The notes beneath the pieces were generated by a model. That model saw only the letters and a list, made by a program, of their open reading frames with translations. It was not told the DNA's origin and did not search any database. DNA of 64,000 bases from Cellulophaga sp. BC115SP (GTDB taxonomy: Bacteria > Bacteroidota > Bacteroidia > Cytophagales > Spirosomataceae). This document shows positions 2,590 to 62,222 of this stretch, in pieces (within the stretch, counting starts at the first letter, position 1; every line of letters starts with the position of its first letter). Location: the NCBI RefSeq assembly GCF_009905545.1, contig NZ_JAAALB010000008.1:1-64000 (forward strand), read 5' to 3'. The position numbers and the translations under genes are program-made.

Positions 2590-2622
2590 AAAATATCAAG
2601 ATATATCAAATGATGAATTAGG

Positions 2623-2753
2623 AGTGTACGAAGGATAATAAAAACCATTTATTTCGGATATTGGATGTGGGATTTCGGAAGTGTAATCTTTTATATTTTG
2701 TAAAAAATAGAGGTATTTTACTTTATTTCCGAAATCAGAAATCCCAAATCCGC
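2623..2753. repeat. Intergenic repeat A, full-length copy 1
   Basis: About 130 bases beginning AGTGTACGAAGGATAATAAA and ending near ATCAGAAATCCCAAATCCGC. Its reverse complement aligns almost end to end, by eye, with 58821-58952, with matching internal spacing. The two halves are complementary (TTTCGGATATTGGATG... against ...TCCGAAATCAGAAATCC), so transcripts could fold into a long imperfect hairpin. It lies inside the exporter gene cluster, between permease and TolC genes. Confidence 0.8.
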
Positions 2754-2769
2754 AATTCAAACCTAACCG

Positions 2770-12749: not shown

Positions 12750-12847
12750 ATAACGAAAAAGTTTAAAAAGCTTCAATGGGGTGTTCAAGTTTTTCTGATT
12801 GCTCATTGACAAAGAATTCAGTATTTTGCAGGTGAAGAGTAGGCTAT

Positions 12848-12904
12848 ATTTCCGAAATCCAACATCCGATATCTGAAATCAATAACTCAATCCTTCGTAC
12901 AGTA
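12848..12904. repeat. Intergenic repeat A, partial copy 4
   Basis: TTTCCGAAATCCAACATCCG and the following bases match the right half of repeat A at 58894-58925. It ends in CTTCGTACAGTA (12893-12904), the same 12-mer as the right end of the copy at 34922-35055. The left half is missing. Confidence 0.65.
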
Positions 12905-12960
12905 CGAACTTGCAATTCACCATTTTCAACCTCTCCATTATTAGCCAAACCTATATTTGT

Positions 12961-15224: not shown

Positions 15225-15845
15225 ATGAAAAAACAATTGTTATTATTGTTGATGGCTGTCGTGGGCCTTTATATGGTAGCTTGTCAATCACAAGATGGTG
15301 CTACACCTTCAAGTGATGGTGATTTAGAGGCAATCCAAGTGTCAGCTGCACGTACTGCTGCTGATTCGACCACAAAAACTAAATGTAAAGGCAAATTAAC
15401 GCCTATTGATTCTACCGCTCTACCTAGCAAGGTTATTTCTTATATCACTACTAACTACGCAGGAGCACAAGTGAAATTTGCGGCGACAGACTCATTAGGA
15501 CAATATGTTGTAGGAATATCTTTGAATAGTACACATACAGGATTATTGTTTGATGCAAGCGGTAATTTTATTCAAATTATCGAAAAATATGGCAAGAAAG
15601 CTAAACTAACAGCAGTAGATATTACAACGCTACCTGCTTCAGTGACTAGCTATGTTACGACCAATTATTCAGGTTATACCATCAAAAAAGCAGGGACTAA
15701 TGCCGATGGAAACTTGTTTGTAGGCATCGCAAATGATACAACTAGAGTGGTCTTGATATTTGACTCGGCAGGTACTTTTGTTAAAGTAGCTGATATTCCT
15801 CCAATGAATGGTGGTCGTGGCAAAGGCAAAGGTAGAGGACATTGA
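15225..15845 (+). CDS. Lipoprotein with two PepSY-like repeats
   Basis: A 206-residue lipoprotein with lipobox LYMVAC (Cys20). After an Asp/Thr-rich linker come two copies of a ~62-residue unit (about 58-120 and 124-190). Each has the pattern [IL]-P-x-x-V-x-S/Y-[IV]-T-T-N-Y-x-G-x-x-[IV]-K-x-A, then a Y/F-V-G-I strand, then a L-[IL]-F-D-x-x-G-x-F-[IV] strand (TTNYAGAQVKFAATDS... and TTNYSGYTIKKAGTNA...). This matches the PepSY-like (DUF2874-type) periplasmic domain of Bacteroidota. The C-terminus ends GGRGKGKGRGH, a very basic tail. A perfect palindrome GAAACGTTTC (15171-15180) and two TTTTGTCGA repeats precede the gene. It ends before a strong terminator. Confidence 0.8.
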   Translation: MKKQLLLLLMAVVGLYMVACQSQDGATPSSDGDLEAIQVSAARTAADSTTKTKCKGKLTPIDSTALPSKVISYITTNYAGAQVKFAATDSLGQYVVGISLNSTHTGLLFDASGNFIQIIEKYGKKAKLTAVDITTLPASVTSYVTTNYSGYTIKKAGTNADGNLFVGIANDTTRVVLIFDSAGTFVKVADIPPMNGGRGKGKGRGH

Positions 15846-15978
15846 TTTATCTGATTTGAAAATTAGGGAATTTGAAGATTTGAAAATGACCTAATGTTCA
15901 ATGATTGCTTACAGCATAACGCCAACAGCTTATGGCAGATAAAATAATTTAAAAGTGTAATTTGTATGATGCATATAA

Positions 15979-17385: not shown

Positions 17386-20300
17386 ATGAAACACCTTTAC
17401 CTAATTATTTTGCTACTATTTAACTATCAGTTAGTTTCCGCTCAAAAAGCTTCATCAAATTCACCTGTATGTATTGGGAGTACGGTTTCGCTGACTGCCA
17501 GTGGAGGAAGTTCTTACAGTTGGACAGGACCCAATGGCTTTTCTTCAAATCTCCAAAATCCTTCGATACCCAATGCGACCGCATTAGCCTCTGGAAGATA
17601 TACTGTAATCATTGACCAAAAAAGCTTTACACAAGAAGTAGTTGTGGGGCAACGCCCGCAGTATCCAAGATATATGTTTCAAGAAATTACAGGTGCAAAA
17701 TTGTCGTTAATTTCTGTTCCCGGGTTAGAATCCGACTATATAACCTATGCTTGGACAGGCCCCAATGGATTTAGTAGCAATGACAAGATACCTGTATTTA
17801 AGGGTTTCAATGAGAATGTACAAGGACTATATAAAGTAAAAATAACAGATGATTACGGTTGTATTCAAAAGGACTCGATTAATATCAAACTCACAAATGC
17901 AGATTGTCCTTATTCATTAACAGCATTTCTTCAGTCAAGTCAGACTGGTACAAGTAAGGAAATTTATATAGCATCATCATCTCCTCGTGATTACACTTTC
18001 TGTAAAAATACATTTGATAAATTAACCATCGATACTACCTACTGGGGAAGTGATGTGAAGGTTACTTGGTTTAAAAATCAACAGCAAGTTTCAATAGGGA
18101 CACCAACAATTGGTATAGATACTGATGGAACTTATAGCGCCATTGTGACCAAAGGTGCATGTAGGTATGTTTCTTCTCCCATTAATATCAAGCTAACAGC
18201 CAATACATCAGTTTTAATAACGACCAGTGTAAATAGCAATATTATTTGTGATAAAAATGGCTCAATAACTTTGAATGGTAGTGCTGATGGGCAAACTGTA
18301 GACCAAAACTATGTGAATTGGCAATGGTTAAGAAATGATAAACCTATCGACAACACATCTCGATCAAGTATTACGGTATCAGATGAGGGTACGTACAAAT
18401 TAGTAGTACGTGATGCGTTTTGCTCAGGTATATCGGAAGGTTTTGTCGTAAAAAAGACTAATAAGATAGAGGCTAATTTATCTATTAGAACTAGCGTTCT
18501 TAATAAATATGACACCAGAGATTTTTTGGTTTGTAACGACTGGTCAGATTACACTTATTTGTGGGTTGAAGGGGCAGGAGCAAAGCAGTTATTTCTAGAC
18601 GGAAAACTCATTGGAAGTTATTCTGAATGGGAGACCCTCGTTTCAACTGATGATAAATTTGGAACTTTTGTACTGAAGGTACAGAATGGTGCCTGTGAGG
18701 CTTACGACACATTAACGATTACGAAAGGAAGTAAAGCAACTGCAGTACCCATTAGAAATAGCATAATGAACTTTGACATTTGCAAAAACCCTAATGAGGC
18801 TACGTCCTATCTTTATATGAAAGATTATATTGGTGGTGATTGGAGTAGTATTTGGTATAAAGATGTACAAGAGTTTAAAACTGGATATGGGACATCCATG
18901 AGAGAACCTGGGGTATACCAGTTTATTGCTAAAAATAGCAAGACTGGTTGTGTGGCTCAAAGTCAATTATTAACTATTTCTCCAGCTAAAACACCATTTG
19001 TCTATAAAACTTTTGAAAAGAAGAATATAAAAATTTGCACGGGTAATGAATACACACTTTCAAGCCCAGAGTGTCAGAGCACTTATATTACTCAAACATG
19101 GAAAAAAGATGGTAAAACTATTTCGCCAGATACCGATAATCCTTGTAACTTGACAGTCAGCGAGGGAGGGAAGTACTGGGTAGAATGGCAGTTACAAGAT
19201 TGTACTAATTACTCAGATACAGTAACAGTTGAAATTACCCCAACACTAGCACAGCCAATATTAAGTATGAGCTGTAATGGAACCTCATTGCAACTAAACG
19301 CTGGTTCTAGTACTGCAAATACCTTCTTTTGGTACTCAAAGGGAGTTTATTTAGGCGCAACTACTTCGCCAAATTTACCAATAGGTCAAGGAGGTAATAA
19401 TAGCTATCAAGTTGTGGCATACACACAAGGAAGCTGTCCCTCCATTTCTTCTTTTTTGAATGTCAAGAATATACTTGCAGTCGAAAAAAGTATGATAACG
19501 GCCTGTTCTGGCACACCGTTCACTTTGTCAGCACAAACCAATTTAAAAAATATTCAGTGGAGTGGACCAAATAGTTTTACTTCTTCAAATGCACAACTAC
19601 AAATATCTAATCCTTCACTTGCCAACAGTGGTGTTTACACAGTAAAAGCATGGGATACCCATATTGCTTGTGCTCTTACAGCAGATGTTTCAGTGTATGT
19701 ATCAGCCGTTCCTACAATGACTTATGTTTCGACTCTAGAGGCTTGTGAAGGATTTACTTTTAAGTTTCCTAATCCTTTGTTTTTACCCGAAAATAAGAAT
19801 GTATCTTTTCCTGCTGAAACCTACGAGTTATACGGACCAAATATCAATCAGAAGGGTACATTAAATACCTTTGATGTTACTATTCCTGTTTATAACAAGA
19901 CCTATGAAGGGACTTACACGCTGGTAGGTTACTCCCCTTATTCGTCGTGTCCTGTGAAAGTTACCACTCAATTAAAAACGGTATCTACTTGCAAAGACCT
20001 CCAGATAGACCAACAAACCCTCAACTCCCTTAAGCCACCATGTCCTAACGGAACATTTGATTTACCCTTCACTTTGATAGGAGATTTTCCTTCTAATCAA
20101 CAGATTGTGGCTAAAATGGAGAAAAATGGTGCCATTATTACAGTAGGTACTGGAACAAGTAGTCCCATTAAAATTACGATTCCTCAATGGTTTGATGTAG
20201 CCAATGTGTGGGTTGAAACATCAGATGGAAGAGTTGTTTCTTCCAGAAGAACCCTTACCATCAATTCAGTAGATAAAAATAGTGTACCCCAATTATTACC

Positions 20301-22797
20301 ATCGTTAGAGAGTGAACTGATTAGTAAAACTAATTTTTCAGGATGTGACTCGCTGGTATTGAAGATTGCTAATATATCTGCTTTAGCGCTGGACAAATCA
20401 AATACTCAATGGTATTATAATCAAACTTTGACCACGACAAAGGATTTAAACTATACTGTCAAACAGAATAAAGGAGGGCAATATGCTGTTCAAGTAGCAT
20501 TTGCTTCGGGCTGTTCGTTAAAAAGTGAGGAGGTAAATGTTAGCTTTCAATATATTTATCCACCCATTAATGTTTACACTTATAATAACGATAACTATTT
20601 GTATTGTGGCAGAGAGAGTATGACTATTAGAGCCAGCTCATATAATAATGCAAGCTATTCTTGGAGTCGGAATGATACGCTTATTGCCACTACAAAATCG
20701 CCAACTTTAGAAATTAACAAGGAAGGTGTGTATAAGGTATCGATGTCTCTGGGTGCCTGTCGTTCAAATTCTGAAACCTTGCAAATTAATACCCGAAAAG
20801 ATAAACTAATACCTGTTTCTATTTATTTGGGAGATATGGCAGTAGCACAACCTCTTGCTTGTAATTCTACCAATTATGTTCTCTATTCGAGTATAATAGA
20901 ACCCAAAAGTATCGTGTTTTCTTGGTTAAAGAATGATGTTAAAATTCCTAATGTAAACACTGATAATTTGCCAGTAACTGAGTCGGGGAGATATAGGCTT
21001 CAAGTAAGCTCAGGAGATTGTTTTGGGTTATCAAATGAGGTCGTGATTAATAATCCATTAGTACCACCCACTATTGAATTTTCTATTACTACATTAGCTG
21101 ATGATCTAAACCGTTACAATAGTATTCAGCCAGATACCATCAGTATTTGTAGTGGAAGTGGTATAAACCTAAGTTTTTCGATGTTTAATAATCTTACTTC
21201 GGCGCAAGAGAAAAACTTGGTAAGTGGTACCCAAACATGGTATAAAGACAATCAAGTTATTTATGTCCATAAATATGAAAATAATACCAATACCACCTCG
21301 TCTTTTTCAACTAATACTTTTTCCACTTACTCCTATGATTGGGGTCAGGCAGGGCTTCAAGAAGTTGGTACCTATAAAGTGGTGGTGAGTACAAAATTTA
21401 AAGATGGTTCAAGTTGTGATTTTTCTTCAAAAAACCTTACGCTAGTCTGGGCAAAAGATACCGTTGGTCTTCGATTTATTCATTCAGGCTTAAGTACCGC
21501 TTTGTATCCTAACGTAAGAGAATTAAGAGCATGTTCTAATGAGATAAGACCATTTGAGGAATATATAAAATCAACGACGGGAAGGGTTAATGTAGCGAAA
21601 TACACGATCCAGAAAAATAATGTAACGGTCAAAACAACCACATCCTTAGATACACTAAATAAGTTTACGATTTCAGAAAAGGCGACCTATCGCTTGATTG
21701 TAAATTATGTAACAGGTTGTGTTGCTAAAACACAACCAATCAATTATTATCCTAATTCAATCAAGGTTGAGCTAAGATCTGATTTCCCTTTTTATATTAC
21801 GAATGACTCTCTGAAAATTTGTAACACAATAGATGATAGCATTGAATCATCGATATATGTTGCTGCTTCAGACCAGTTTTCAAAAAACTATCAGTACGTA
21901 TGGTATAAGGACAATAGTCCAATCAAGAATACAGATGCGCATGTGAAACAAGTCTCTGAGGGCATTTATCAGTTGAAAGTATCTTCAGGAAATTGTACAG
22001 GCGAATCAAAAAAAATACTTGTATATAAACCTAAGTTATCCTTGCCCATTACTCCTGCTGATTCTGCGTATTTCTGTGAAGGTAAAACGGTAGAATTGAA
22101 ATTGCCAGAAGCAAAAGGATTACGATACCATTGGCAAATGAATCAACAAGAAATCGAAAATGCCACGACCGCATCTTTGACAGTAAATAAGTCAGGAGTT
22201 TATCGAAGCTTAGTTTACGATGAAAAATGTTGGGATATGAGCCTATCTGTTAAAATTGGGCAACTACCCAACATCCCAGCTACAGCCATTATCTCAGGCG
22301 ACCAGTCGATTGATTATGGCAAGGAAGCTAAGTTGAAGGTGGATTTGGGTTCTCATGCCCCATGGACTTTTAAATTGTCGGATGGACGAGAATTTACCGC
22401 TCAGAAAACGCCATTTGAGATTACGGTAAATCCTCTATCAACGACCTCTTATGCGCTTTCAGAGGTGAAAAATATCTGCGGTACAGGTACAGTAACTGGA
22501 ACAGCCAAAGTAACCGTGTTGGTATTAGGCATAGAAGAAGAAAGCGGTATTCATGTGGAGGTGTATCCCGTTCCTGTCTCAGATTATTTGACCTGGAAAG
22601 TTAGAGCAGATAAGCCTGCTTCTTATGATTTACGCCTAAGCGACACTCAAGGTAGAGTATTAGAAGTGCAACATAATACCACTCGTTCCCAAGCGCATGA
22701 AGGTCAATTGAATATTAGTACATTACCAACAGGCGTTTATTTCTTACAACTAACCGTCGGAGATAAAACTTTTAGCCGTAAGGTGATAAAGGAGTAA
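17386..22797 (+). CDS. Giant T9SS-exported Ig-like repeat protein, copy 1
   Basis: An 1803-residue surface or secreted protein. Residues 1-20 are a signal peptide ending VSAQ. The N-terminus opens with an Ig/PKD-like unit (SPVCIGSTVSLTASGGSSYSWTGPNGFSS). The body is a chain of about 15-18 units of roughly 85-100 residues that repeat the pattern C-x(n)-L-x-x-x-x-Y-x-W-[YF]-K/L-[ND]-[NGD]... E-x-G-x-Y-x-[LV]... C (for example WFKNQQQ, WLRNDKP, WYKDVQ). The ~80-residue T9SS type A sorting domain at the end (IHVEVYPVPVSDYLTW to KTFSRKVIKE) directs export and surface attachment. It is probably an adhesin or matrix protein. The paralogue at 22850 follows after 52 bases. The last 176 codons are nearly identical between the two, much more than the rest. 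Confidence 0.9.
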   Translation: MKHLYLIILLLFNYQLVSAQKASSNSPVCIGSTVSLTASGGSSYSWTGPNGFSSNLQNPSIPNATALASGRYTVIIDQKSFTQEVVVGQRPQYPRYMFQEITGAKLSLISVPGLESDYITYAWTGPNGFSSNDKIPVFKGFNENVQGLYKVKITDDYGCIQKDSINIKLTNADCPYSLTAFLQSSQTGTSKEIYIASSSPRDYTFCKNTFDKLTIDTTYWGSDVKVTWFKNQQQVSIGTPTIGIDTDGTYSAIVTKGACRYVSSPINIKLTANTSVLITTSVNSNIICDKNGSITLNGSADGQTVDQNYVNWQWLRNDKPIDNTSRSSITVSDEGTYKLVVRDAFCSGISEGFVVKKTNKIEANLSIRTSVLNKYDTRDFLVCNDWSDYTYLWVEGAGAKQLFLDGKLIGSYSEWETLVSTDDKFGTFVLKVQNGACEAYDTLTITKGSKATAVPIRNSIMNFDICKNPNEATSYLYMKDYIGGDWSSIWYKDVQEFKTGYGTSMREPGVYQFIAKNSKTGCVAQSQLLTISPAKTPFVYKTFEKKNIKICTGNEYTLSSPECQSTYITQTWKKDGKTISPDTDNPCNLTVSEGGKYWVEWQLQDCTNYSDTVTVEITPTLAQPILSMSCNGTSLQLNAGSSTANTFFWYSKGVYLGATTSPNLPIGQGGNNSYQVVAYTQGSCPSISSFLNVKNILAVEKSMITACSGTPFTLSAQTNLKNIQWSGPNSFTSSNAQLQISNPSLANSGVYTVKAWDTHIACALTADVSVYVSAVPTMTYVSTLEACEGFTFKFPNPLFLPENKNVSFPAETYELYGPNINQKGTLNTFDVTIPVYNKTYEGTYTLVGYSPYSSCPVKVTTQLKTVSTCKDLQIDQQTLNSLKPPCPNGTFDLPFTLIGDFPSNQQIVAKMEKNGAIITVGTGTSSPIKITIPQWFDVANVWVETSDGRVVSSRRTLTINSVDKNSVPQLLPSLESELISKTNFSGCDSLVLKIANISALALDKSNTQWYYNQTLTTTKDLNYTVKQNKGGQYAVQVAFASGCSLKSEEVNVSFQYIYPPINVYTYNNDNYLYCGRESMTIRASSYNNASYSWSRNDTLIATTKSPTLEINKEGVYKVSMSLGACRSNSETLQINTRKDKLIPVSIYLGDMAVAQPLACNSTNYVLYSSIIEPKSIVFSWLKNDVKIPNVNTDNLPVTESGRYRLQVSSGDCFGLSNEVVINNPLVPPTIEFSITTLADDLNRYNSIQPDTISICSGSGINLSFSMFNNLTSAQEKNLVSGTQTWYKDNQVIYVHKYENNTNTTSSFSTNTFSTYSYDWGQAGLQEVGTYKVVVSTKFKDGSSCDFSSKNLTLVWAKDTVGLRFIHSGLSTALYPNVRELRACSNEIRPFEEYIKSTTGRVNVAKYTIQKNNVTVKTTTSLDTLNKFTISEKATYRLIVNYVTGCVAKTQPINYYPNSIKVELRSDFPFYITNDSLKICNTIDDSIESSIYVAASDQFSKNYQYVWYKDNSPIKNTDAHVKQVSEGIYQLKVSSGNCTGESKKILVYKPKLSLPITPADSAYFCEGKTVELKLPEAKGLRYHWQMNQQEIENATTASLTVNKSGVYRSLVYDEKCWDMSLSVKIGQLPNIPATAIISGDQSIDYGKEAKLKVDLGSHAPWTFKLSDGREFTAQKTPFEITVNPLSTTSYALSEVKNICGTGTVTGTAKVTVLVLGIEEESGIHVEVYPVPVSDYLTWKVRADKPASYDLRLSDTQGRVLEVQHNTTRSQAHEGQLNISTLPTGVYFLQLTVGDKTFSRKVIKE

Positions 22798-22849
22798 TGG
22801 GCGAAAAGTAGCTGTACATATAGATTATTATCCAAAAAGTTAAAACATC

Positions 22850-25800
22850 ATGAAACACCTTTACCTTATTCTTCTATTTTTATATGCTTCTTGTGGACTC
22901 TATGGACAACAAGCGTCATCTAACTCACCTGTTTGCCTTGGGAAAACACTGACGCTTACAGCCTCTGGAGGTACAAAGTATCAATGGAGTGGTCCAAATG
23001 GGTTTAGTTCCACTCTTCAAAATCCAGTTATTGAAAAAACTACTCTCGCAAGCTCAGGAGTATATTATGTCACGATCGATGGTAAGATTACCTACCTAAA
23101 TGTTATTGTCGGTCAAGAGGATTTGTCTGGTCGAACGCCAATCAGTCAGACGGTTGTTGGCGGAGGATTGTATTTTGAGACGTATTTTAATAGATACATT
23201 GATGGACTGAGTTATGAGTGGACCGGGGCGAATAATTTTACATCAAATGATGTATTTGCTGTCGTAAAAGGTATTACCAAGAAGTCTGAAGGAATGTATC
23301 GCCTTAAAATTAAAGATAAATATAATTGTATCGTTCAGGATTCAATATCTGTAAAGTTTTCAAAACCCGATTGTCTTTATGAAAATATTGTAAAATTAAA
23401 ATTTGGAGAAAAAGCATTCGATGATAGAGGATATATTAATGCGGATATTAATAAATCAGGAACAACTCTCATTAATATATGTGAAGGTTCTAAGCCGCAA
23501 CTTTTTGTCGATACAACCAATTTTGCTAGCTCCGATCAGGTGAGTTGGTATAAAAATGGTCAGAAAATTTCCTCTTTTGCTTCAATATATGTATCAGAAA
23601 CTGCTTCCTATTATGCCATTATTAAAACAAAAGATTGTGAATACACAACAAATTCATTTGCTGTGAAAACAGTAGAGTCCTTTACTGTTTCATATAATTA
23701 TGACCGTTCAAGTACTCCAATCAAATTGTGCAAAAATGATGGCAAAGTTACTCTATATTCCAGTGTTTACAATCAAGACGTTTATGATACACAAACTTGG
23801 AAAATACAATGGTTTAAGAATGACGAGCCTTTGGTAGGTCAAAATTGGTATGATTTAACAGTAAAAGAACCTGGCGTTTATCGATATACGCTTAGTGATG
23901 GTTTGTGTTCGGGTACTTCAGCTAAGCAGGAAGTAATCTTGAGCGACAACGTTTTAAGTGATTTGTACGCTTTTGCTGGGGGGCCTAACTACTATGGCAA
24001 AGAGTTTTTGATTTGTAACAACTACCCTAGTTTTGTTGGGGTCAGTTTTTTGGCACAAGGTAATGCTAGCTTTTTTAAAGATGGGGTGTTACAGAATAAA
24101 TTGGAGGTAAATGGAAATGCCCATATAATCAAATACAATGAAGTAGGAACATATACTTTAGAGGTGAAACAAGGTGGATGTATTTCAAGAGATACTCTAA
24201 TCGTAAAGCAAGGAAAGCAAAGTGTGACAGCAATCAATGTTATGGATACTATCGATCCATTTGCCTGTCTTTACAAGAGGTCCAATAGAACTATGTATAT
24301 CAATTCGTACTTTCCTAACGAGAATGAATGGACTCTACAGTGGTATAGAAATGATACGCTTGTATGGGGAGGATATTGGGCTAAAAACCTAACCCAAAAA
24401 GGTCTTTACCGCTTCAAAGCTATGAATAATATCAATGGCTGTGTGGTTTATAGTGATACCATAACGCTGAATGATATAAAGATGGAGAGCGTAGACTCCG
24501 ACTTTGAGAACAAAGGAGTGATACATTTATGCAAAGGAACAAGCTACCCGATGATAGATCCTCGATGCGCTTCAACAGATCTGAAGAAAGTATGGAAAAA
24601 AAATGGCAAAATTATAGATAACAGTAAAATAGTTGGTTGTAAACTGTTGATTAGCGAAGCTGGAAAATATTGGATTGAATATACTGATATGTTTTGCACA
24701 TACGCTACAGATACACTGGTTGTTGAAATAGATAAGGCTCAAAATGTGCCAATTCAAGTGGCTTGTGTTTCACAAGGGCAATATTCGTTTGAGATTCCAA
24801 CTCAGCCGAACTCCCAATATTTGTGGTACAAAAATGACATCTTAATGAAGGTGGCATCCTTACCTAAAATTACAGTAAATGGTGCCAATGCTGCCAAGTA
24901 TCAAGTGCAGATACTAAACGATTATTGCTCTGTAATGTCAATGCCGACTGCAATTGGACTGGATGTCCCAAGCAAATTAAGTGTTTGTCACGGCAGTAGC
25001 TTGTCGATTCCTAAGATTAGTAATTTCAAGGATTTTAAATGGGTGGGGCCGAATGGATTTACAGCTACACAAAACGATATTGTAATACCTAATGTAAATG
25101 ACTCCCATGCAGGAGTTTATACTGTTACAATTAATAATGGAAATACTTGTGTGGCATCAGCCACCGTAACTGTCGACGTCAATCAACCTCTGGATATGCA
25201 CTATCCAACCTCTTTTACTGTTTGTGAAAATGGTGAATTTATCTTTCCAAAACCTCAATCAGCACTCAGTCAAAATTTTGAGAATGTCGAATATTACCAA
25301 GTGAAAGGTCCTAATAACCTTGACCTAAATAATCGTTATAGTTATACAAATCCTATCATCATAAACAAATTTACCGCAGCGCAACAAGGAGAGTATTTGA
25401 TTACAGGTTTTTCAAACAATACGATATGTACTACTACCTTAAAAACTACGGTAACCATTAGTCCTTCTGAATGCCGTCAGGTTGTGTTAGATCAGGATGT
25501 TCTGTCTAATTTAACGAGTTCTCCACCGTGTTATGGAACAAAGCTTACAATACCTTTCAAGATTTTAGGTAATGTGCCTGCTGGTACTACCTTCAAAGTT
25601 TTGTACGATGATGGGAAGGTAATAGGTCGAGGAACAAATCCTATTGAGATAACAGTGCCACAAGTCAAAGGGCAAGTTCATATATGGATTGAATCTGAAG
25701 ATGGCACCTTGAAGTCCACCCCCAAATACATCAATGTAAGGTATGGTCCTGGAGAATATAATACTTACCCAGTTATTAATCTACTAAGCGATGGAGAAGA

Positions 25801-28219
25801 GGTTACTCACAATAATTACATTGGTTGTGACACATTGCATCTAAGAGCCGCTTACACACAGACTAATCTGGTACAGTGGTACTTGAATGATACTTTGATT
25901 ACGGGAGCCACTTCACTTAATTATGAAGTTACCAAAGCTGGTATTTATAAAGTAGTAGAAAAAATGCCATCTGGATGCATGTGGGAGTCAGAATCGGTAT
26001 CGGTTAAGTTAAAAACATTATCTAAACCCTATATTGAAGGTTCACAAATTATCTCTTGTGAGTATACCACTCTCAATATTAAAAGTAATGTTAGACGTGC
26101 TTTTTCTGCCAGATATGAATGGATAAAAGTAGGCGATTCTATTTCAGAAAATGGTGGATCTGAGTTTAAAGCTAAAGAAAGTGGTTTATATCAAGTGAAA
26201 ATGAAATTGAATTCATGTGAGTCTATATCTGATACTTTTGAAGTGAAAAAAAACACAACCAAAGAACTATCCATATTAACATCATTAGAACAAAATGAAT
26301 TAAGTGCTTTTTATAACTGTAATAAGCCTGAGCATACACTTCGAGTAAACAACCCAAACGTATTTTACTCATACCAGTGGTATAAAAATGATGAGATTAT
26401 AACGAATGCAACAGCTTCTTCATTAGTATTAAACGAAACAGGAAACTACCACGTACGCGTAAAATTTGGAGATTGTTTCGGAATATCTGAAAAAACGGCT
26501 TATCTAAATAAACCATTTGAACTCCCCGTATATGATGCTACTACTAACAATGACTCAACCAACAACTACTCTCTTTGTAAGGGAGATGTAGCTATGCTAA
26601 GCTTTAATATTAGTGGAAATGGATTTTGGAGTCCAACACCGACAAAGTTGATTGGGTATAGTCAAATCTGGTACAAAGATGGGGTAGAAATTTATCGTAG
26701 CGAAAATGAAAATGGAGTAACTACGGAGAAGACCAGTTTGGTAGCACCTAGTAGGATAGATGGCACCAATTATACGTTTGGAGTAGCACGTTTGGCCGAG
26801 CCTGGGAAGTATCAAGCTTTACTAAAACTTAAATATTCCGATGATAAAACTTGTTCTATGTTATCTAAAGTCGTTACGATTGGTATCGTAAATGAATTGA
26901 GTGCTTTCCAATTTAATGACTCTGATGAAGCGTTAGTAACCTATAGTATTCCCAAAAATCAAACGTTTTTGACGAGTTGTGCAAGTCTAATTCATCCATT
27001 TGCTAAAATAGGAGGGTTGGATACTCAAATGAGACCTTATCAATATGAGGTTTTTAGAAATGGAATAAAAGTGAAAACCGCCTTTGATAAAGATTCTGTG
27101 AAAGGATTTTCGACTAATCAGGAGGGGATATACCATTTGAAAATTTCTCACAAATCAGGGTGCGTTATGACTACTGGGCCAATTACGATAAAACTTAATA
27201 AGTTAAAAACAGATATTGTTGGAATAGATTCTTCGCTTTGTCAAGATCAATTAATAAATCTTCGGGCCAATGTGAATAATAACACGATAGACTCCAAACT
27301 ACTTTCTTATTCATGGGTAAAAAATAATCAGGTGATTGGTACCAGTCCTAATTTATTTACTCAATCAGAAGGTGTCTATCAATTAAAAGTTGAACTAAAA
27401 ACTGCCAATGGAGTTTGCCAAGGGGTATCTGACAAACTCAATATTACCAAAACTAGGTTCCTAAGTTCTATTTTGCCTAAAGACTCTATGTCATATTGTG
27501 GGATAGATAAAGTACTTTTTCAAGCAAACAATGAATTAGGGCTGTCTTATCAATGGGAGAAAAATAATGAAGAAATTCCAAATGCAACCTCCTTTGCTTA
27601 CCAAGCCACTCAAACTGGTCGTTATAGAGTATTAGTACAGAAAAATGGGTGCTACGAATATTCTCCAAGTGTGTTTGTTGGATTATACGCCAACATCCCC
27701 GCTACAGCCAGTATCTCAGGTGATCAGTCGATTGATTATGGCAAGGAAGCTAAGTTGAAGGTGGACTTGGGTTCTCATGCTCCATGGACTTTTAAATTGT
27801 CGGATGGACGAGAATTTACCGCTCAGAAAACGCCATTTGAGATTACGGTAAATCCTTTATCAACGACCTCTTATGCGCTTTCAGAAGTGAAAAATATCTG
27901 TGGTACAGGTACAGTAAGTGGAACAGCCAAAGTAACCGTGTTGGTTTTAGGTATAGAGGAGGAAGGCGGTATTCATGTGGAGGTGTATCCCGTTCCAGCC
28001 TCAGATTATTTAACCTGGAAAGTTAGAACCGATAAGCCTGCTTCTTATGATTTGCGCTTAAGTGATACCCAAGGACGAGTGTTAGAGGTTCAGCATAATA
28101 CAACACGTTCCCAAGCGCATGAAGGTCAATTGAATATTAGTACATTATCTACAGGAGTTTATTTTCTGCAAATGACCGTCGGAGATAAAACTTTTAGCCG
28201 TAAGGTGATAAAGGAGTAA
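22850..28219 (+). CDS. Giant T9SS-exported Ig-like repeat protein, copy 2
   Basis: A 1789-residue paralogue of the preceding protein, with the same plan: signal peptide ending LYGQ, an opening Ig/PKD-like unit ([29 protein letters not shown]), a chain of cysteine-bounded Ig-like units with W-[YF]-K-N motifs (WYKNGQK, WFKNDEP, WYRNDT, WKKNGKI), and a T9SS type A sorting domain. The first 17 bases of the two genes are identical (ATGAAACACCTTTACCT), and so is the order of many blocks (SDNFSS-like domain edges, YHWQ/YQWEKN unit before the end). The body is clearly related but strongly diverged, while the end shows about 92% identity by hand alignment over 529 bases without a gap. A tandem duplication with later end homogenisation is the simplest reading. 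No terminator lies between the copies, so they may be co-transcribed. Confidence 0.9.
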   Translation: [1789 protein letters not shown]

Positions 28220-34879: not shown

Positions 34880-34921
34880 AAATGATAGTATGTTAATGGT
34901 AAATTACGAATTGTGAATCAA

Positions 34922-35055
34922 TACTGTACGAAGGCTTCTAAAACTGTCGATTTCGGATAGCGGATATCGGATTTCGGAAGTGTAATCTTCTATTTTTTTA
35001 TTTCCGAAATCAGAAATCCCAAATCTGAAATAGTTTGGAAATTCTTCGTACAGTA
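34922..35055. repeat. Intergenic repeat A, copy 3 with terminal inverted repeats
   Basis: 134 bases with perfect 12-bp ends: TACTGTACGAAG (34922-34933) and CTTCGTACAGTA (35044-35055). The similarity continues outwards, AATTGTGAATCA against TAATTGAGAATT inverted. The interior is the repeat-A core (GATTTCGGAAGTGTAATCTT, then TTTCCGAAATCAGAAATCCC), the same as copy 1 but with a shorter AT-rich centre. It lies between the NHL and DUF1501 genes. Confidence 0.8.
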
Positions 35056-35127
35056 ATAATTGAGAATTATAGATATAGGCTAGTCTAATTTTGTCTAGGC
35101 ATCAGAATGTTAATACCTACAGCCCAA

Positions 35128-58344: not shown

Positions 58345-58435
58345 ATTGATTTTAATTGAAATTGGGTGGGTGATTATGACCTGACAGTATGCTTGAAAGT
58401 TTTATTCGGCATTTTGAGAAGAAACAAAATTCCCA

Positions 58436-58550
58436 TTTGCCACACCTTACTTTTCTTGTCTTAACACAAGAAAAGTAACCGCAGCGGCGGCCGCAAAAGA
58501 AAGTCAAGAAATCCTAAACTCGCCTTCGGCTCAAACAGTAGGATTTCATA
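58436..58550. repeat. Structured intergenic element with two hairpins and a GC-rich core
   Basis: TTACTTTTCTTGT (58447-58459) pairs perfectly with ACAAGAAAAGTAA (58466-58478). Directly after it comes CCGCAGCGGCGGCCGC (58479-58494), far above the local GC level. AAATCCTA (58509-58516) and TAGGATTT (58539-58546) then form an outer stem around GCCTTCGGC. Confidence 0.6.
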
Positions 58551-58820
58551 AAAATGGATACTTGTACTTGTAAGATTCTCTTTTTTAGTATTTTATAAAA
58601 TTTCAACCTACTTGTAGTCTATCATTTCCAAAGGTATAAAATGATATTGGGGCTTTTATACTCATTTGTATAGAACGTCTTCCCAAACTTGAATTGTTGT
58701 GGTATTACTCACGAAGTACTAATTTGCATCCGATTTGTGGATTAAACTAGTGTGAAAGCGTCAATAAAGAGTTTAATCTCATAACTCAGCACTAGAATTG
58801 TATAAAGGATTTCCAACCAT

Positions 58821-58952
58821 CGCAGATTTAGGATTTCTGATTTCAGAAATAAAGTAAAACACCTTTATTTTTTACAAAAAATAGAAGCTTGTACTTCCGA
58901 AATCCAACATCCGATATCCGAAATAAATGGTTTTTATAATCCTATGTACACT
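58821..58952. repeat. Intergenic repeat A, full-length copy 2 (inverted)
   Basis: GCAGATTTAGGATTTCTGAT then AAATAAATGGTTTTTATAAT up to GTACACT. It is the reverse complement of 2623-2753 along its whole length by eye, including the central TTTTACAAAAAATAG segment. It ends 31 bases before the sbcC start codon. Confidence 0.8.
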
Positions 58953-58983
58953 ACTAACTCAGCACTCAAAATTCATCACTTAT

Positions 58984-61900
58984 ATGATTCCTATTAAGTT
59001 GTCCATAAAGGGCTTGTATTCATATCGCGAAACGCAGGTAGTTGATTTTACCAAGTTGACCGAAGCATCTATTTTCGGGATTTTTGGAAAAGTTGGCTCT
59101 GGTAAATCCTCTATTTTAGAGGCGATTACCTTTGCCTTGTACGGCGATACCGAAAGAATGAACAAGTCGGGCGACGACCGAAACTATAATATGATGAATC
59201 TTCGCTCAGATGACCTACTCATCGATTTTGAGTGTCGTGCGGGCAAAGACAATCACTTGTATCGTTTTACGGTAAAAGGTCGTAGAAATAGCAAGAAGTT
59301 TGACGATGTAAAAACTTTTGAAAGAAAAACCTATCAATGGATGCCCGAAATTTCAGATTGGGCGCCTATTGAAGTCGAAAATGCTTCCGAAAAAATTATA
59401 GGTCTTTCTTACGAAAACTTTAAAAGGACGATTATCATTCCTCAGGGGCGTTTTCAGGAGTTTATCGAATTGCCTTTGTCGAAACGTACCCAGATGATGA
59501 ACGAGATATTTCAATTGGAGCGTTTTGACTTGGCGGCTAAGGTAAAGGTATTAAAAGAGACCAATGAAAAACAGCTTGAACATCTGAATGGTAAAATTGC
59601 CCAATTAGGACAAAGTACGCCCGAACAGTTAGAGGCAGTCAAAGATCAAATTTTGGCATTGCAAACTTTGTTAGGGCTTAAAAATCAAGCACTCAACGAT
59701 AAAGTAGCTGATGAAAAAAGCTTGGATTGGATAGCCAAACTATTTAAGAGTTTGGAAGAAACCGCGAAGCAACTTCAGATACTAGAGGCGCAAATACCAG
59801 ATTTTGAAACAAGAGAAAATCGCCTGAAAGTCTACCAAAAGGTCTTGATGCAACTCAAGCCTTTGTTGGCGCAGCAGCAGGCACGCTTGGCAGAACAACA
59901 AAAAGATTCTCTGGCATTTACTCATAAAACCGTTGAACAACAGACTTTTTTACAACAAATACAACAGTCACAAGCGAAGCTCGATGAGCTAAAACCTGCA
60001 TTTGAACAAAAAGAAAACCTGCTAAAAGAAGCGGAAGAATGGAGCTGGGCTTTGAAATGGAAACAAGCTACAAGCGAGAAATTGAAGTTGCAAGAGCGTT
60101 TGGAAAAAGGCAAATTAGCGGTAGAACAACAGCGTAGCAAAATTCAAACAGGACAAACGGAACGTCAACAAATTGAGGAAGGTTTACAAAAAATCAAATC
60201 CCAACTGGTTGACTTGCACAAACTTTCGCAAGTGGCTACGTGGTTTGGGCAAAAAAGAAACCTTTTGCAACAAAGAAAACAAATTATAGATGCAGGCAAA
60301 GAAGCCAAACAAAAGACTGAAGGTTTTGAACAACAACTTCAGGCAATTGAGCAAGATGAGGTTTTTCAAGGACAAATTTCTCTAAAATCAGAAGTAGAGC
60401 AACGTAGTATTTTAGTAGAGCAACTCAAACAGGATTTTCAACAGAAAATAGATTTTCATCAGCAACATATTGCGCAATTCGAAATGCAGAAGGCTTTGCA
60501 GGCTTATGCCAACGCCTTGAACGATGACGAGCCTTGTCCGCTGTGTGGCGCAATTCATCATCCTGATAAACTGACATCTTCGGAGGATTTTTCTCAGAAA
60601 ATACAAGCAGAAAAGACAAGCCAAAAAGCGTGGCAAAATCGCTTGCAAAGAATCGAGCAACTCAATGCACAATGGGATGCGATAGAACAAAATATAGCTG
60701 TGTGGAATGCTGAACGCAACAAACAGGGTATTTTGTACAAGGATATACAGACTAAGATACAGGAGCATGATCAGATTTTTGTATGGTCAGAGTTTTCGAA
60801 AGAGGATGAAGAATACCTTCAAAGAGCTTTTTCTGTTTCAGAACAACAACTAAAGGAAATAAAAGCTTTTGAAGAAAGACGAAGTGCTCAAGAGCAACAA
60901 CTGCAAGTTTGGCAAAAGGATTTGGAAGAGACGTTTTTGCCAACTTTACAAAAAATAGAAGTTGAAATCTCGGCAAAAGATTCGGAGGTAAATACTACTC
61001 AGGCGCAAATACAGCGCCTAGATATGTTGACATTAGAAAAAGAAACGGCCGACAGTATTGCCAACCATATTCAAAGATTACAAAATCAATATCAGGATTT
61101 GGTCAAAAATGTGGAGCAATTACAAAAAGACCTTCAATTGTTGCAAGACAAAAATAATCGTCTCGAAGGTGAAATTGTGGCTTTGAAACAAAATCTCGAA
61201 CAACATCACAAGGTGATGCAGGATTTTGAAAAACAACTTCAATCGGCGATGAACGAAATGGGCTATGTATCGCAACAGGAAGTAGAGCAGATTTTAGCTT
61301 GGAACTTGGCAATCGATGCGGAACAAAAAGCTATTGAAACTTTCAAAGTGCAATGGCAAGCGACACAACAGCATCATAAATCGCTATCGGAAGAAACGAA
61401 AGGTTTGCGATATGATGTCGATATACATCAGCAACTTTTGGCGGATATTGCTTCTTTACAACAAGAAATCAATACCTTGCAAGCGGAGGCTGGCGCACTC
61501 AAAGGACGTCAACTGCAATTGGAACAAGACTTAGCTACTCAAGCGGATTTATCGAAGGAAAAAGAAGCTTTGGAGATTCGTCGTGCGGACATAGATACGC
61601 TGGCGAAATTGTTTAAAAGTCAGGGGTTTGTAGGGTTTGTGTCAGGGATGTATTTGCAAAACCTTTGTAATCAAGCCAATGAGCGCTTTAGCAAAATGAC
61701 CCGACAGGCTTTGCAACTCGAAATTTATGAGACACGTCCTTCAGAATTTGATTTTAGAGTGAGAGATTTACTCAATGAAGGAAGAACCAGAGCCGTAAAA
61801 ACGCTTTCTGGTGGACAGAAATTTCAAGTTGCCTTATGTTTAGCACTGGCGTTGGCAGATAATATCCATGCTCAAACTCAATCAACCAATAATTTCTTTT

Positions 61901-62085
61901 TCTTGGATGAAGGTTTTGGGTCGTTGGATAAAGATTCGCTAACAGAAGTTTTTGAGACCTTAAAATCTTTACGAAAAGAAAACCGCATCGTCGGCGTTAT
62001 TTCCCACGTAGAAGATTTACAGCAAGAAATAGAAAGCTATATCACCGTAGAAAACCACCCAGAAATGGGAAGCCAAGTTAAGTGA
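58984..62085 (+). CDS. sbcC: SbcC/Rad50-type exonuclease ATPase subunit
   Basis: A 1033-residue SMC-like protein. Walker A GKVGSGKSS is at 35-43 and the Q-loop in RTIIIPQGRFQEFI near 140-155. Two long coiled-coil arms (about 185-500 and 545-885, Gln/Glu/Lys-rich) flank the zinc hook C518-P-L-C521, where two SbcC heads meet. The ABC signature is in TLSGGQKFQVALCLALALAD near 940 and Walker B in FFFLDEGFGSLDKDS near 980. It forms the SbcCD complex with SbcD, cleaving hairpins and protein-blocked ends. I chose the ATG at 58984 (MIPIKLSIKGLYSYRE, the family N-terminus); the longer frame from 58927 would begin in repeat A. It is far from sbcD on the same strand. Confidence 0.96.
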   Translation: MIPIKLSIKGLYSYRETQVVDFTKLTEASIFGIFGKVGSGKSSILEAITFALYGDTERMNKSGDDRNYNMMNLRSDDLLIDFECRAGKDNHLYRFTVKGRRNSKKFDDVKTFERKTYQWMPEISDWAPIEVENASEKIIGLSYENFKRTIIIPQGRFQEFIELPLSKRTQMMNEIFQLERFDLAAKVKVLKETNEKQLEHLNGKIAQLGQSTPEQLEAVKDQILALQTLLGLKNQALNDKVADEKSLDWIAKLFKSLEETAKQLQILEAQIPDFETRENRLKVYQKVLMQLKPLLAQQQARLAEQQKDSLAFTHKTVEQQTFLQQIQQSQAKLDELKPAFEQKENLLKEAEEWSWALKWKQATSEKLKLQERLEKGKLAVEQQRSKIQTGQTERQQIEEGLQKIKSQLVDLHKLSQVATWFGQKRNLLQQRKQIIDAGKEAKQKTEGFEQQLQAIEQDEVFQGQISLKSEVEQRSILVEQLKQDFQQKIDFHQQHIAQFEMQKALQAYANALNDDEPCPLCGAIHHPDKLTSSEDFSQKIQAEKTSQKAWQNRLQRIEQLNAQWDAIEQNIAVWNAERNKQGILYKDIQTKIQEHDQIFVWSEFSKEDEEYLQRAFSVSEQQLKEIKAFEERRSAQEQQLQVWQKDLEETFLPTLQKIEVEISAKDSEVNTTQAQIQRLDMLTLEKETADSIANHIQRLQNQYQDLVKNVEQLQKDLQLLQDKNNRLEGEIVALKQNLEQHHKVMQDFEKQLQSAMNEMGYVSQQEVEQILAWNLAIDAEQKAIETFKVQWQATQQHHKSLSEETKGLRYDVDIHQQLLADIASLQQEINTLQAEAGALKGRQLQLEQDLATQADLSKEKEALEIRRADIDTLAKLFKSQGFVGFVSGMYLQNLCNQANERFSKMTRQALQLEIYETRPSEFDFRVRDLLNEGRTRAVKTLSGGQKFQVALCLALALADNIHAQTQSTNNFFFLDEGFGSLDKDSLTEVFETLKSLRKENRIVGVISHVEDLQQEIESYITVENHPEMGSQVK

Positions 62086-62087
62086 TA

Positions 62088-62222
62088 TCGGATTTTAGAT
62101 TTTTGATTTTTGATATCGGATTTGATTAAAGAATATAGAGGGATATTCATTGCTAAATAGTAAAACTAAATGGTGTTAAAATTTGAGAGTATTAATCCAA
62201 AATCAAAAATCCGACATCAGCA
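62088..62222. repeat. Imperfect palindromic repeat related to repeat A
   Basis: ATATCGGATTTTAGATTTTT near 62089 pairs with AAAATCAAAAATCCGACATC near 62199. The wording (ATATCGGATTT, AAATCCGACATC) is the repeat-A vocabulary, but the centre differs. It occupies the gap between sbcC and the first glycosyltransferase gene. Confidence 0.5.

Follow-up and report, generated by a model that had tools for sequence, protein, structure and literature searches.

Within a 64,000-nucleotide stretch of Cellulophaga sp. BC115SP (contig NZ_JAAALB010000008.1, positions 1 to 64,000, hereafter the window), an intergenic sequence of about 130 bp occurs in two inverted copies 56 kb apart, and we asked what kind of element this is and what put it there. 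The original prediction was of a near-identical pair of imperfect palindromes belonging to a non-autonomous mobile element of MITE or REP type. Our answer is that the repeat is very probably a MITE with 19-bp ends, moved in trans by an IS4-family transposase or a close relative of it with production of 9-bp target duplications. The call is made because of the terminal repeats, the target duplication, the copy number, the presence/absence differences between genomes, and an insertion sequence (IS) with the same ends and the same duplication length.

Anatomy of the repeat and its copies in the window

The inverted repeat is real: positions 2600-2780 aligned with the reverse strand of 58819-58964 at 127 of 146 identities (E = 3e–47). 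Calling the copies near-identical was generous, in that identity is 89% over the 131 bases first noted (2623-2753) and 87% between copies 1 and 2 in their inverted orientation at the limits given in Table 1. The coordinates first noted need enlarging to those limits, which for copy 2 are those of the full element. In copy 1 the right terminal repeat is lost, so that the 131 bases stop short of it, and copy 1 is also without a target duplication. The palindrome expected in each copy was borne out, the arms of copy 1 (2651-2680 and 2727-2756) being 80% complementary. Copy 1 has as neighbors genes for an outer-membrane efflux protein, an FtsX-type permease, an HlyD protein and an ABC ATPase, for which the earlier label of a DevABC/TolC cluster is fair.

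Table 1. Copies and parts of the repeat in the window, and end-pairs with the second interior type in fetched loci of the genome (locus coordinates)
Feature	Position	Strand	Remarks
MITE copy 1	2619..2756	+	Retains the left terminal repeat and the two heptad stem arms; right terminal repeat lost
Left terminal inverted repeat, copy 1	2619..2637	+	TAGGAGTGTACGAAGGATA, 2 mismatches vs. TAGnnCTGTACGAAGGATT; compared by eye with consensus
Fragment	about 12844..12905	-	One terminal repeat and one stem arm
Third copy	34919..35058	+	140-bp shortened variant with both ends; target duplication 8/9
Target duplication, copy 2, one side	58784..58792	.	9 bp, ACTCAGCAC
MITE copy 2	58793..58956	-	Complete, 164 bp, two terminal repeats
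Target duplication, copy 2, other side	58957..58965	.	9 bp, ACTCAGCAC
Second MITE type	L063 232-396		
Second MITE type	L064 149-313		
Second MITE type	L070 531-659		
Second MITE type	L077 550-687		
Second MITE type	L083 522-656		
Second MITE type	L095 639-802		

Alignment of 30 copies together with their flanks gave a full element 164 bp long and bounded by terminal inverted repeats of 19 bp, and the consensus runs in the order TAGnnCTGTACGAAGGATT, linker, left stem arm, A+T-rich centre, right arm and inverted end. The left stem arm is made up of four seven-base units (TTTCGGA TATCGGA TGTTGGA TTTCGGA), and the divergence of 46 copies from the consensus ranged from 3 to 15%.

The ends were also found around other interiors. 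The fetched loci had 68 raw end-pairs lying 45-300 bp apart, and 55 of these enclosed the interior seen in the window copies; subtraction of seven pairs from other genomes and four spurious pairings left 57 own-genome sites, which take in a second interior type and a 52-bp form. At least six end-pairs had the same terminal repeats with a different interior (second MITE type in Table 1), which in L064 is palindromic. The 52-bp form, at L075:584-635, has little beyond the two ends, yet is flanked by a perfect 9-bp duplication, and it is missing in both of the relatives examined (G001 and G003). Since the 52-bp form and the other interiors share these ends, the ends alone seem to be sufficient for movement, in which case the heptad arms would not be required.

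Dispersal, target duplications and empty sites

A genome-wide count, which had been proposed as a check on the mobile-element reading, was run on the 7.08-Mb genome (206 contigs) and put the family far above two copies. The search with the 131 bases, for which 40 of 264 first-look candidates were scored, gave at least 52 matches, 43 of them strong and nine weak, the weak ones being the palindrome aligning to itself. Allowing for one mismatch at most, the terminal-repeat pattern ACTGTACGAAGGATT matched 84 times, vs. 0 times for the reversed control; at least two of the 84 (L067 and L082) had no adjoining MITE. In all, at least 82 copies or fragments were present in 230,069 fetched bases of the genome (the alignment spanning 130 bp or more for 63), a figure that is a lower bound for the genome and not a density, since those bases were chosen for holding matches. 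Three of the copies stand in tandem at L046 (G000:C130, about 290244-290634), and two at L047.

Strong matches occurred in three species of one genus (BC115SP, G001 and G003) among 39 genomes, BC115SP included, with at most 21 candidates scored per genome; G002, G004 and three other genomes gave short or weak matches only. The plasmid search with the MITE consensus found none, as did the search of viral contigs with the exact 26-base core. Copies are mostly intergenic: once the empty site had been restored in silico, an open frame of at least 100 aa spanned 13 of the 57 sites, vs. 83.6% of 500 random positions in the window.

Among 40 copies with both ends (36 from BC115SP and four from relatives, one of these four being the ortholog of window copy 2), the flanking 9-mers had a mean identity of 0.65, vs. 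0.463 (sd 0.022) with shuffled partners. When lengths from 5 to 13 were compared, length 9 was far ahead (for 7 the values were 0.314 vs. 0.248, and for 11 they were 0.245 vs. 0.204). Eighteen of the 40 copies matched at eight or nine of the nine bases, ten of them perfectly. The larger own-genome set, with all interiors, had 22 of its 57 sites matching at eight or more bases, six at six or seven, and 29 at five or fewer; the copies without a clear duplication, about half, may be old, rearranged or indel-shifted.

Empty sites in relatives, the second check proposed, were looked for and found at the sites of other copies than those in the window. For nine own copies the empty site was restored and looked for in G001 and G003 (18 comparisons), and the loci of eight were aligned. 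Junctions with a single target copy were recognized by eye in four comparisons (the L053 site in both genomes, L011 in G001 and L002 in G003), and in eight more the element was missing and the junction was diverged, gapped or otherwise occupied. The element was present in four (the L080 and L055 sites in both genomes, the L055 copy in G003 being rearranged), and the remaining two, both at the L004 site with its adjoining common repeat, were undecided. There is thus insertion polymorphism between sister species. Neither window copy has a clean empty site in G001 or G003: copy 2 is in the same place in both, and copy 1 is common to G003, while its site in G001, the closer relative, is occupied by unrelated sequence of like length, a case of loss or replacement.

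An IS4-family element with the same ends

One terminal-repeat match was followed by a reading frame, and this marked an IS of 1322 bp at L101:521-1842 (G000:C130:75920-77241). Its ends differ from the MITE pattern by 0 and 2 mismatches (0.00 expected by chance), and ATTGTGAGT flanks it on both sides, a perfect 9-bp duplication. The encoded protein, which is 401 aa long if started at an internal ATG and 414 aa long if started at the first, upstream GTG, scored 151.4 bits against the NCBIfam IS4 model NF033592 (cut-off 115) and matched Pfam DDE_Tnp_1 (PF01609), and a Y-(2)-R-(3)-E-(6)-K signature could be read by eye in the translation as YRQRWQIEVFFRFMK. No solved structure matched the transposase by sequence at E ≤ 1. 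By its sequence it is an intact transposase of the IS4 family. A second autonomous element, considered at a contig end (L062), was rejected on finding that it is a terminal repeat adjoining a sequence that recurs at the ends of many other contigs or close to them.

The IS has in common with the IS4 family (IS4, IS4Sa and IS10 subgroups; PMC2266710) a DDE transposase with YREK spacing, and its length of 1322 bp with a 9-bp duplication is likewise in keeping with that family, where the target duplication is about 10 bp and ranges from 7 to 13 in the published table (PMC2266710). The subgroup end consensus sequences are CA------T for IS4Sa, -AATR for IS4 and CT for IS10 (PMC2266710); the ends found here start with TAG, which fits the 5'-NA type and is an exact match to none of the subgroup consensus sequences in that table. 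By analogy with what is described for IS4 elements, movement would be by cut-and-paste. The MITE and the IS have only the 19-bp ends in common, and by eye the MITE interior does not have the look of a deletion product of the IS.

The IS was found once in its own genome and was not found in G001-G004 at E ≤ 1e–20, though G001 and G003 hold many MITE copies. A 70%-identical protein is encoded in G016, from another genus of the family, within an element that has similar ends (three mismatches each) and flanking 9-mers agreeing by eye at six of nine bases; G012 has a protein of 25% identity. Scanning contigs with the transposase gave two relatives, 49% and 62% identical, both in MAGs of Saprospiraceae, and among plasmid proteins 292 records matched, none of them reaching 60% identity (24-27% among the 20 matches listed).

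This distribution speaks for the best-surviving alternative, that the repeat is a genuine MITE moved by a different transposase, now lost or unassembled, and that the IS4 copy shares its ends by descent only: the MITE-bearing G001 and G003 gave no IS, and the G016 element means that relatives with these ends circulate. We nonetheless consider this unlikely, as the IS at L101 is the sole transposase gene recognized beside these ends in the part of the terminal-repeat matches scanned, carries the matching ends together with a perfect duplication of 9 bp, and would be replaced under this alternative by a lost mover that most likely was itself another IS4 relative with these ends. The most likely mover, judging from the shared ends, is this IS4 transposase or a close lost relative.

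In the mechanism that we propose, the IS4-family transposase (of the IS at G000:C130:75920-77241) would recognize the MITE ends TAGnnCTGTACGAAGGATT and move the MITE in trans, giving rise to the 9-bp target duplications; insertion would be directed to a target of the form AAT-N5-ATTnnnAAT-N5-ATT, described below, making intergenic heptanucleotide arrays frequent landing sites; and inserted copies would then decay in place, apparently neutrally. One identifiable mechanism would in this way explain many repeats in this genus, and the single IS, the different interiors and the 52-bp minimal form together make a matched set for testing what an IS4 transposase needs in cis.

MITEs with inverted repeats like those of autonomous ISs, and with a partner that divergence makes hard to find, have been described (PMC3852290). 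The IS982-derived MITE of Cardinium (PMC9769881) likewise has many copies and a parental IS in the same genome, the IS family being different (IS982 there, IS4 here). BrickBuilt of Porphyromonas gingivalis (PMC4596501) is also an intergenic Bacteroidota MITE with short tandem repeats inside, but these form a 23-bp minisatellite, in an element with 19 copies in ATCC 33277, whereas here there are degenerate heptads in inverted arms. Our family was not found in the literature searched on MITEs, IS4 and heptanucleotide repeats or under the letters CTGTACGAAGG, a search with most subscription papers and ISfinder outside its scope. As a MITE with an IS4 partner, the repeat makes up a new family within a kind that is well known, and it has an unusual liking for landing sites made of seven-base repeats.

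The hairpin and the landing sites

It had been suggested that transcribed copies could form RNA hairpins, and by folding energy this is possible: the family consensus folds end to end (–59.1 kcal/mol, z = –9.1), while copy 1 by itself is only moderately beyond shuffled sequences (z = –2.9 on one strand and –2.7 on the other). Evidence for a conserved RNA role was not forthcoming. Two-sided (compensatory) changes were seen at 0 of the 14 consensus pairs in an RNAalifold alignment of 42 sequences (from the 46 copies), and Rfam had no match in the window at gathering scores.

The stem arms do vary less between copies (3-5%) than the ends, linkers and centre (12-20%), and the arms had only slightly fewer singletons (34 of 2630 cells, vs. 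77 of 4002 elsewhere, P = 0.05, in the 41 rows left when five other-genome rows were removed from 46). The low divergence of the arms suggested selection on the hairpin in place, an explanation that we rejected because of equal rates in four sets of orthologous fixed copies, where 33 of 369 arm sites and 52 of 582 other sites differed, 8.9% in both cases. The sample is small, and single sets deviate in both directions (arms vs. rest, copy 2: 8/130 and 25/197; L080: 13/130 and 18/218; copy 1: 6/58 and 3/73; L055: 6/51 and 6/94). The contrast between arms and rest must therefore be due either to the source copies or to the way in which copies were detected, and there is no sign of constraint after insertion or of RNA function.

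These results also bear on a reading of the repeat as a REP/BIME palindrome spread by a RAYT (a single-strand HUH transposase), or as a structural RNA or terminator family between genes. The preference for intergenic positions (the 13 of 57 sites with a spanning frame, vs. 83.6% of random positions), the long consensus hairpin and the less variable arms are all in its favor, but we regard it as very improbable given the 9-bp target duplications and IS-like terminal repeats, the lack of any pair with two-sided change, the lack of an Rfam match in the window, and the equal divergence of arms and rest among orthologs. REP/BIME elements are palindromes of 20-40 bp with a GTAG or CGTC tag, and their movement by RAYT is not known to produce a target duplication; the present repeat departs from this in its 164-bp length, its 9-bp target duplication and its IS4 partner. 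That is, of the two types first proposed the non-autonomous MITE stands, and the REP type is disfavored by the target duplications and transposon-like terminal repeats. Derivation of both window copies from one local rearrangement, as an inverted segmental duplication, would account for two inverted copies 56 kb apart, yet it is refuted by the dozens of further copies, and copy 2 and many others are bounded by terminal repeats and by target duplications of differing sequence, leaving it next to no probability.

Returning to the MITE with an IS4-family mover, we examined where its copies land and found the choice of target to be non-random. The symmetrised target duplications read ATTnnnAAT, and in the 13 duplicated sites that lack a heptad array, positions 15-17 counted outward were A in 23 of 26, T in 21 of 26 and T in 18 of 26 cases. 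From the duplication motif and these outward bases we infer a target that reaches past the duplication, AAT-N5-ATTnnnAAT-N5-ATT, with ATT recurring about every 7 bp; degenerate seven-base arrays of the form TGARTNN fit this target. The sequence TGARTNNTGART occurred within 60 bp on either side in 29 of the 57 sites, compared with 93 of 5544 random intergenic 60-mers, a control taken from this window only, by which, at two 60-mers per site, about 3.3% of sites would be expected to have it. Flanking units past the first nine bases read outward as A[CT]TCA vs. TGA[AG]T in a ratio of 25 to 10 at duplicated sites and 40 to 9 at non-duplicated sites. Inverted-flank similarity was raised at non-duplicated sites (9.86 vs. 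8.63 shuffled, P = 0.005), with no effect in duplicated sites.

Some IS4-subgroup elements have a strong insertion preference in target arms (PMC2266710). Tentatively, an IS4-type transposase might here recognize a dyad-symmetric target in which ATT recurs every 7 bp, thereby steering itself and its MITEs into intergenic heptad arrays as a safe landing zone, and the heptad-hairpin interior of the MITE may create landing sites in turn, feeding nested repeat growth; we offer this as a possibility about which we remain rather doubtful. A target phased at 7 bp would tie a transposon to the heptanucleotide arrays found between genes.

Such arrays were seen in two flavors, TGARTNN in 31 and KGATDTB in 14 of the 59 genomes searched, and the window has a degenerate heptanucleotide array of its own at 62079-62126. 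The reversed control was also high, for TGARTNN in G002, G009 and G055 and for KGATDTB in G001, where it exceeded the count itself; simple tandem arrays therefore account for part of the heptad counts. TAACTGA heptamers, reported in Beggiatoaceae, Cyanobacteria and five Bacteroidetes, are also seven-base direct repeats between genes (PMC4679880); they differ in sequence, no transposon carrier is shown for them in the accessible portion of that report, and they are a parallel to the heptad arrays only.

Several other features of the window were observed in passing. The gene beside copy 2 (58999-62085) is SbcC/RAD50-like. Members of the SbcC/RAD50 family cleave long DNA hairpins; the neighborhood is probably coincidental. 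On the other side of copy 2, at 58383-58615, there is a repeat of another sort, about 230 bp long and GC-rich in one stretch, which is missing at the same spot in G001 and G003, has many similar copies elsewhere in those genomes, and is a separate mobile element. Two adjacent reading frames, each of about 1800 aa, occupy 17386-28219, where the alignment to G001 skips from 22799 to 27690, as if G001 had one copy fewer. Finally, a short stretch right behind an ORF (15840-15901) has numerous matches in G004 and one or more in G002, some of them regularly spaced.
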